From Halorubrum hochsteinianum (lineage in GTDB: Archaea > Halobacteriota > Halobacteria > Halobacteriales > Haloferacaceae), in the NCBI RefSeq assembly GCF_023702125.1, contig NZ_CP098415.1, positions 2,898,045 through 2,962,044 on the forward strand: a DNA stretch of 64,000 nucleotides, read 5' to 3'. The notes beneath the pieces were generated by a model. That model worked only from the letters and a program-made list of their open reading frames with translations, was not told the DNA's origin and did not search any database. Below, one piece after another: positions 36,138 to 62,431 of the stretch (positions are counted from its first letter, which is position 1; each line of letters opens with the position of its first letter). The position numbers were made by a program, and so were the translations under genes.

Positions 36138-36476
36138 GGTGGCGCGCGCCTCCGAGGCCGCATTGCGGCCGAGGAGCGCGCGCGAGGGAGTCGGTCGCCG
36201 AGCGGAGCGACGGCGACCGACGAGGCTGGGGAGGCGTGAGGTGCGGTCCCGCGAGCGACCGGAGGGAGCGAGCGGGAGCACGGAAGTCGTAGCCCGCGCA
36301 GCGAACGCAGTGAGCGAGCAGGACCGTCTTCCGGCGGTTGCTGTGGCGGGGGGACTCGAAGGGGCGGCCGCGAGGTGGGGGCAGGCGACGGCAGGACCGC
36401 AGGAGCGAGCAACGCGAGCGACGAGGACCGCACCGAGCGTGCGCCCACCTCGCGGCTGGGGCTTCGGCGGTCTCGG
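36138..36476. repeat. Structured intergenic repeat, copy A
   Basis: A GC-rich ~340-bp element in the 631-bp gap between the NIF3 and hemA genes. It shares with copy B (60884-61182) blocks such as GAGGCTGGGGAGG-GTGAGG, GGGACTCGAAGGGGC, GGAGCGAGCAACGCGAGCGA and GGCTGGGGCTT-GGCGGTC. Between them are hairpins: GGCCGC/GCGGCC, GTCGGTCGCCG/CGGCGACCGAC, and a long-range 13-bp stem 36367-36379 with 36444-36456. The long open frames across it are artefacts of base composition. Promoters of the NIF3 gene must lie to its left. Confidence 0.7.
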
Positions 36477-36529
36477 CGGTCTCGGCTGTCGTGTCGTTTG
36501 CGGCGGTCTCGGCGGTCGTGTCGTTTGCG
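36476..36529. repeat. Two tandem 27-bp units
   Basis: 36476-36502 and 36503-36529 are copies with one mismatch (unit GCGGTCTCGGCTGTCGTGTC plus TTTGCG). They lie at the right end of repeat copy A, downstream of hemA. Positions 36530-36675 show nothing else recognisable. Confidence 0.75.
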
Positions 36530-36675
36530 GCGAGAACAGCCACGTACAGCCGAGTGGCTGGGGACTCGGCGGTCTCAGTTACCGAGTTGTTCGATCCCCT
36601 GCCAGCCGCGATGTGTTCGGAGCCGGTGCTCCGCGACAGGATAGCCCAGAAAAGCCAGTTCGCACCGAAAACGGC

Positions 36676-60883: not shown

Positions 60884-61182
60884 GGTGGCGCGTGCCTGCG
60901 AGCGCCCGAAGGGCGCGAGACAGCACGCGCGAGGGACGCGGCGACCGAAGCGAAGCGAAGGGAGCCGCGAGGCTGGGGAGGTGTGAGGCGCGGTTGCTGT
61001 GCCGGGCGGGACTCGAAGGGGCAGCCGGGAGGCGGGCACAGGCGAAGCAAGCAGCGTGGCGCGATGCGCCACGGGCAGTCGGCGGCTCCGCCGCCGGCGA
61101 CACCGCAGGAGCGAGCAACGCGAGCGACGAGGAGCACAGCGAGCGTCTGCCCGCCTCCCGGCTGGGGCTTTGGCGGTCTCGG
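60884..61182. repeat. Structured intergenic repeat, copy B
   Basis: A ~300-bp element in the 529-bp gap between the DUF5827-like and superoxide dismutase genes. It has the same shared blocks as copy A at 36138-36476 and a long-range 15-bp perfect stem, 61024-61038 with 61148-61162. Hairpins GCGCCC/GGGCGC and CGCGGC/GCCGCG stand where copy A has hairpins of different sequence. Copy B lacks the ~85-bp hairpin-rich insert of copy A between GTGAGG and the GGGACTCGAAGG block. Positions 61183-61355 hold nothing else recognised. Confidence 0.7.
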
Positions 61183-61355
61183 TCACGATGTCGGATTTGT
61201 CGCAGCGAGCGACTGGGAGCTCGGGAGGCTCTGTGTCGGTCAACGACTCGCACGCAGTACCGCATACTCAAAGCTCACACAGTACTCACTACCCGGTCGA
61301 CACGTCACGAAAAAATGCGGATCTCGACGCGCGTAACGCGTCCTCTCGAACGCGC

Positions 61356-61955
61356 TTACTCGAACAGCTCGACGGCCTGCTCGTAGCGGTCCGACGGCTC
61401 CTCCCAGTCGACGACCTCGAAGAAGTTGTCGACGAACTCGCCGCGGGCCGGGCCGTAGTCGTGGTAGTAGGAGTGCTCCCAGACGTCGAGCGCGAGGACG
61501 GGGTGACCGCCCCAGATAGCGCCCTGGTCGTGCTTGTCGACCACGACGTTGCGAAGCTGGTTCGAGAACGTGTCGTACACCAGAAGCGCCCAGCCGCTGG
61601 CCGCGGAGGCCGCCGCCTCGAACTCGCCCTTCCAGGCCTCGTACGAGCCGAAGTCCTCCTCGATGCGGTCGGCCAGCTCACCCTCGGGCTCGTCGCCGCC
61701 CTCCGGCGACATGTTCTGCCAGAACAGGTCGTGGAGGATGTGACCCGAGGAGTTGTGGGTCACGTTGCGGATGGCTCCGCCCGACGAAGAGAAGTCGTGG
61801 GACTCACGGTTCTCTTCGAGCGTTTCCTCGGCAGAGTTCCAGCCGTTTACGTACCCCTGGTGGTGGGTATCGTGGTGCCATTCGAGCACCTGCTCGGAGA
61901 TGTGCGGTTCCAGCGCGTCGTAATCGTACGGTAACGGATCGAGTTCGTAGCTCAT
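61356..61955 (-). CDS. sod: Superoxide dismutase (Mn/Fe)
   Basis: A 199-residue Mn/Fe superoxide dismutase, cytoplasmic. Metal ligands: the His of LEWHHDTHHQGYV (about residue 29), HNSSGHILHDLFW (second His), and DVWEHSYYHDY (Asp and His). SNQLRNVVVDKHDQGA and GHPVLALDVWEH are typical of the archaeal Mn form. ATG 61955 chosen; the frame upstream is not conserved. Protects against superoxide under high light and oxygen. Confidence 0.95.
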   Translation of the reverse strand: MSYELDPLPYDYDALEPHISEQVLEWHHDTHHQGYVNGWNSAEETLEENRESHDFSSSGGAIRNVTHNSSGHILHDLFWQNMSPEGGDEPEGELADRIEEDFGSYEAWKGEFEAAASAASGWALLVYDTFSNQLRNVVVDKHDQGAIWGGHPVLALDVWEHSYYHDYGPARGEFVDNFFEVVDWEEPSDRYEQAVELFE

Positions 61956-62347: not shown

Positions 62348-62431
62348 CGGTGGGACTGGGATTCGAACCCAGGAAGCCGTGAGGCTACCTGCTTTCAAGG
62401 CAGGCGCAATGGGCCACTCTGCCATCCCACC
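62348..62431 (-). tRNA. tRNA-Ser (anticodon UGA)
   Basis: 84-nt class II tRNA. Acceptor GGTGGGA (62431-62425) pairs with TCCCACC (62355-62349), followed by discriminator G (62348), the Ser type. The anticodon stem CCTGC/GCAGG encloses the loop CTTGAAA with TGA at its centre. The T arm is CTGGG-TTCGAAT-CCCAG, and a long variable arm (TAGCCTCACGGCTTCC) fits serine. CCA is not encoded. Confidence 0.93.

Follow-up and report, generated by a model that had tools for sequence, protein, structure and literature searches.

The stretch of DNA analysed in this study (the window) comprises 64,000 nucleotides of the Halorubrum hochsteinianum genome (contig NZ_CP098415.1) and carries two intergenic copies of a structured repeat. 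Copy A (36138-36476) and copy B (60884-61182) were confirmed at the positions given in the original prediction. As that prediction also held, each copy resides between two minus-strand genes. The neighbours of copy A are the genes for glutamyl-tRNA reductase (the hemA site) and NIF3, and those of copy B are the genes for an Fe/Mn superoxide dismutase (the SOD site) and a DUF5827 protein. A second superoxide dismutase gene (G000:C1:93173-93768) is 96% identical in DNA sequence to the gene at 61356-61955 over 596 bases, and many relatives likewise carry two such genes, which suggests conversion between them. A tRNA gene of 84 nt (Rfam RF00005) occupies 62348-62431 on the minus strand.

The repeat unit is composed of three hairpins (H1, H2 and H3) linked by conserved G-rich blocks. 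In both copies the parts follow one another on the plus strand in the order GGTG, H1, GAGGGA, H2, GAGGCTGGGGAGGYGTGAGG, a G-rich linker, GGGACTCGAAGGGGCAG, H3, CTGGGGCTTCGG and a tail. In copy A, the 5' block GGTG and H1 span 36138-36183. The basal (left) stem of H1 pairs GCGCGCGC (36142-36149) with GCGCGCGC (36176-36183), and above it lie a bulged C, three variable pairs (TCC/GGA) and a tandem GA/GA mismatch. The block GAGGGA (36184-36189) is followed by H2 (GTCGGTCGCC...GGCGACCGAC; 36190-36221), which is one of many interchangeable cassettes, and by the block GAGGCTGGGGAGGCGTGAGG (36222-36241), which has 119 matches in the same genome with at most one mismatch. Whereas the left and right halves directly adjoin in most copies, those of copy A are separated by an extra hairpin-rich stretch (approximately 36246-36339) that most copies, including B, lack. 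The right half begins with the block GGGACTCGAAGGGGC (36351-36365), in which CGAAG (36357-36361) provides the 5' arm of the stem that closes H3. Hairpin H3 itself (36365-36458) contains the long stem, formed by CCGCGAGGTGGG (36368-36379) and CCCACCTCGCGG (36444-36455). Its 3' side and closing stem, GGCTGGGGCTTCGG (36454-36467), lead into a tail (36468-36569) with a degenerate second unit from 36554 (GTGGCTGGGGACTCGG). Copy A is predicted to fold more stably than its own shuffles on both strands (z of -4.5 on the plus strand and -3.0 on the minus strand).

Copy B comprises the 5' block with H1 (60884-60930; basal stem GCGCGTGC at 60888-60895 with GCACGCGC at 60923-60930), GAGGGA (60931-60936), an H2 cassette of the CGC type (CGCGGCGACC...GGAGCCGC; 60937-60968), the blocks GAGGCTGGGGAGGTGTGAGG (60969-60988) and GGGACTCGAAGGGGC (61008-61022), and H3 (61022-61165), whose long stem pairs CCGGGAGGCGGG (61025-61036) with CCCGCCTCCCGG (61150-61161). 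Its H3 includes a nested double-hairpin module (61054-61096) that is missing from copy A. The 3' side of H3, GGCTGGGGCTTTGG (61160-61173), makes a G-T wobble as its closing pair, and the tail (61174-61224) ends in a degenerate second unit (61209-61224). The two copies therefore share blocks while their stems differ in both arms, as originally described.

Elements are 240-300 nt in length, which is below the size needed to encode a transposase. The lengths of all element segments are uniform modulo 3, and this argues that the element is not coding. Tail units begin in the 3' arm of H3, are often arranged in tandem, and are sometimes exact repeats; longer forms contain TTTATAAA. Their lengths (51, 54, 57, 63, 66 or 69 nt) are all multiples of 3, yet they hold no open frame. 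A coding role for the tail or for the element was rejected, given that every frame contains stops and that the element obeys no modulo-3 rule. Nested double-hairpin modules are present in 53 of 195 copies, at varying places in H1, H2 or H3 (for example in L032, L047 and L058). Two examples are GTCGCCGGC..GCCAGA..CGCTGGA and GGCGTTCACGAGAGC..GAGCCAATCAGAACGC..GATGAC, and such modules possibly constitute a second family of small repeats.

Copies A and B are two of roughly a hundred in their genome. A BLAST comparison of copy A with this genome yields 75 pieces on the chromosome and none on the second contig, and the sequence GACTCGAAGGGGC occurs 57 times exactly and 120 times with at most one mismatch, compared with 3 occurrences for a backward-read control. 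Matches to the left block number 119 in this genome, 13-194 in each of 29 other Halorubrum genomes, and 97 in one related genus, with few in other genera of the family; the backward-read control of this block gives zero matches in the same genomes. Copy number thus differs more than 10-fold between species. Among the 84,980 species representatives searched, matches were confined to Halorubrum and a few haloarchaeal bins. Searches of viral contigs and phages gave no match, and a search of plasmids gave one partial match, on a Halorubrum plasmid. No description of the repeat was found in the open-access literature. The repeat is a real, genus-wide and apparently undescribed Halorubrum family. 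A left half devoid of H3 (H1, GAGGGAGTC, H2, GAGGCTGGGGAGGNCTGAGG) is found in 1-4 exact copies in another genus of the family (L064, L065, L066 and L292-L295), and its occurrence in other genera implies that this module predates the element of Halorubrum.

Among copies with enough flanking sequence, 175 of 176 are intergenic according to a simple gene caller trained on the window. The gene on the tail side ends toward the element in 127 of 174 cases, and the other side exhibits no preference. At the SOD site, the insertion is common to approximately 18 species, whereas outgroup species have a short spacer that lacks the element; the hemA site shows the same pattern in fewer species. These findings indicate that the element inserted and was then long kept, although the empty sites at both loci are too diverged to fix the element ends or the insertion boundaries. 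The two most similar copies in the H. hochsteinianum genome share only 91% identity, which gives no indication of recent movement.

The proposal that folding is under constraint was evaluated with a larger set of copies. Across 72 distinct copies, standard pairs fill 94.9% of the cells at 32 stem pairs, compared with 86.5% after the 3' arms were reassigned among the copies and 27-45% after sliding of the arms; some stem positions fall within the motifs used for the search, and conservation there is partly by construction, whereas the variable stems lie outside these motifs. In a subset of 35 sequences, cut manually for length, changes on both sides affect 15 of the 32 pairs (92 cells). Shuffles give 7.9 pairs and 23.3 cells, and slid arms at most 5 and 9. 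The original prediction had staked its case on covariation in a larger alignment, and covariation above both the shuffled and the slid controls is what we observe. We firmly conclude that the folding of the repeat matters.

However, the paired differences between A and B that first drew attention to folding should not be taken simply for compensatory point mutations, because to a large extent whole hairpins are exchanged between copies and the remainder is homogenised. H. tebenquichense shares five sites at which the flanks are 91-98% identical, and at these sites the blocks are kept and whole hairpins differ. Within the H. hochsteinianum genome, the similarities of H1, H2 and H3 are uncorrelated (Mantel r of 0.03, -0.03 and -0.02). 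Where two copies carry the same H2 (13 pairs), their H1 and H3 hairpins are no more alike than average. This lack of linkage shows that the hairpins are exchanged as cassettes. Thus, the constraint on folding stands, and the A/B changes themselves largely reflect exchange of whole hairpins and homogenisation.

Homogenisation is evident at the closing pair of H3, which is A-T in 1415 copies (52 genomes) and G-C in 262 copies (22 members of the genus, counted with a slightly different pattern); G-T and A-C are found in 25 and 14 copies, respectively. Each species is nearly uniform. For example, G-C and A-T copies number 65 versus 3 in H. hochsteinianum, and 73 versus 2 in H. tebenquichense, whereas A-T prevails in two other species (22 versus 117 in G132 and 14 versus 87 in G089). 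At the hemA and SOD sites, most copies have the closing pair typical of the genome in which they reside, with copy B as a G-T intermediate. The closing pair has therefore changed in place and species-wide. That an insertion inherited from a common ancestor changes in concert with about a hundred others suggests homogenisation by gene conversion, a process known to be efficient in the polyploid haloarchaeon Haloferax volcanii (PMC8223754). Replacement of the shared sites by transfer between species is a possible alternative.

Several asymmetries reveal which strand folds. Among 2x2 mismatch loops, tandem GA/GA occurs 85 times and its complement TC/TC never. G-T pairs exceed A-C pairs by 49 to 21 over distinct arm pairs (p=0.001), and GNA triloops exceed TNC triloops by 57 to 29; at the species-wide closing pair the excess of G-T over A-C is only 25 to 14. 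These data show that the plus strand is the strand that folds. The original prediction had allowed for a cruciform, and the presence of the GA loops on one strand only makes it unlikely that a cruciform is the sole functional form. Predicted fold energy was discarded as evidence on this point: all 90 copies examined are more stable on the plus strand, but this is also true of the shuffles (90 and 88 of 90), and the bias therefore reflects composition only. A kink-turn was likewise rejected, as the GA/GA pairs are not accompanied by a 3-nt bulge.

A folding strand could act as DNA or as RNA. Of 261 hairpins with stems of at least 5 pairs, 166 end in a triloop, and 155 of these 166 are closed by C-G, so that most tips are C-NNN-G triloops; shuffled and coding-gene controls exhibit neither a triloop excess nor a closing preference. 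Only one of 58 tetraloops is a GNRA tetraloop. Loops of the GNA and GNNA types are known to give extraordinarily stable DNA mini-hairpins when they sit on G-C stems (PMC4686876). These tips suggest a preference for DNA rather than RNA and tilt the balance toward single-stranded DNA, although the triloop preference could instead reflect how palindromes arise.

These tips weigh against the best of the alternative explanations, in which the repeat is a structured non-coding RNA whose plus strand is transcribed at many loci, from its own promoters or by read-through from the left neighbour, to give a three-hairpin RNA with a role either in trans or as part of a 3' UTR. Covariation above controls and long retention at the SOD site are consistent with this idea, as are blocks that appear unpaired yet are strongly conserved. 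The plus-strand signature (85:0 and 49:21) also fits, since tandem G-A pairs and G-T wobbles are equally expected for RNA, which argues against a reading in terms of DNA only. Of 195 copies, 53 are preceded at a distance of 10-45 nt by a TATA-like sequence that might be taken as a promoter. However, most such sequences lie approximately 15-17 nt from the element, which is too close for transcription to start at its 5' end, and they are missing from most copies and not consistently placed; the element's own promoter was rejected on these grounds. Read-through from the 127 of 174 tail-side genes that run into the element would give the minus strand, and no Rfam family was matched (the best weak match was a chance match to a microRNA). 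We consider an RNA function possible but less likely. Of the two options in the original prediction, an undescribed structured RNA family or a structured repeat element, the structured repeat is supported, and the RNA is the less well supported of the two, given the lack of a consistently placed promoter and the DNA-type tips.

The reading that we prefer, with about even confidence, is that the family is a non-autonomous repeat of the single-stranded DNA type, similar to PATE or REP elements, that is now largely fixed. The plus strand as DNA would fold into three hairpins held by the conserved G-rich blocks, a form of the kind recognised by the enzymes of IS200/IS605, REP and PATE-like elements. 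The family may once have spread through enzymatic recognition of this folded single strand, probably via a single-stranded DNA intermediate and an enzyme that recognises the blocks, and most copies today would be old and fixed in place. Recombination via the common blocks would swap whole hairpins and homogenise the remainder, which would make copies within a species alike and yet leave closely related species with different hairpins at a given site. Mobility alone does not explain why the stems of old copies have remained paired, and this suggests that the element has a function at present.

Bacterial REP/BIME repeats associated with TnpA-REP (RAYT) are intergenic hairpins, often at gene ends, that fold on one strand and occur in tens to hundreds of copies. 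The Halorubrum repeat resembles them in its intergenic hairpins at gene ends, its single folding strand and its copy number, but it is a larger, three-hairpin unit in an archaeal genome with no detectable Y1 (HUH) transposase (PF01797), a search for which Haloferax volcanii served as a positive control. None of the four TnpB genes of this genome is flanked by element ends, and no copy contains a gene-sized insert. An IS605/TnpB partner was therefore rejected. Like MITEs, the elements are small, non-coding and dispersed, but inspection of their ends revealed no terminal inverted repeats or target duplications, with the 3' boundary blurred by tail units.

The PATEs of Haloquadratum walsbyi are likewise haloarchaeal, of non-coding length, high in copy number and palindromic, lack obvious terminal inverted repeats, and are heterogeneous apart from short conserved parts (PMC3119063). 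In contrast to PATEs, whose palindromes are similar to IS605 ends in their own genome and which include members more than 90% identical (PMC3119063), the Halorubrum repeat has three hairpins, no IS605 link that we could find and no recent copies, and it is genus-wide and kept at common sites. PATEs also host smaller nested repeats; among these repeats of Haloquadratum, SMR-A resembles the double-hairpin modules in placing short palindromic modules within the palindromes of a larger repeat, but is ~110 bp with terminal inverted repeats (PMC3119063), whereas the Halorubrum modules are double hairpins of ~45-60 nt. Because there is no Y1 transposase, no TnpB gene with such ends and no pair of copies more than 91% identical, we do not claim membership in PATE or REP/RAYT systems; at best, the element may work like them.

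The position of the copies brings to mind BIME-like repeats that serve DNA binding or chromosome structure, in which immobile hairpins at gene ends would serve a host protein such as gyrase or a nucleoid or SMC-like protein. About a hundred copies located at gene ends, nearly all intergenic and mostly faced by the tail-side gene, would suit such a role, as would the retention of old copies at the same sites and the homogeneity of the blocks within a species. We know of no partner protein, and the more than tenfold difference in copy number between species and a one-stranded signature, which is unexpected for a double-stranded binding site, make this explanation improbable. Less credible still is an absence of function, with perfect stems arising from mutational template switching inside the hairpins and recombination homogenising the copies, for although hairpins are replaced as units and recombination between copies is evident, this leaves unexplained the conserved unpaired blocks common to other genera, the tandem GA on one strand and the tolerance of G-T over A-C.

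Beyond the preferred reading of an old single-stranded DNA-type repeat, we tentatively put forward a broader proposal that we rate as unlikely: about a hundred single-strand-folding elements per genome across the genus, each built of interchangeable hairpin cassettes set between fixed recognition blocks and maintained by ectopic gene conversion, might be served by an undescribed enzyme or binding protein of archaea. In this scheme, the genome-wide switch of a paired base in each species would imply co-evolution with a trans-acting partner. The family offers a natural data set of more than a thousand copies from about fifty species, in which hairpin swapping and genome-wide switching of a pair can be read directly. 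It also serves as a warning that paired differences between copies of a repeat should not be taken as compensatory RNA evolution, and it opens ectopic gene conversion in Halorubrum to testing. Should the repeat prove to have a partner protein or a transcript, it would represent a new archaeal system of structured elements.
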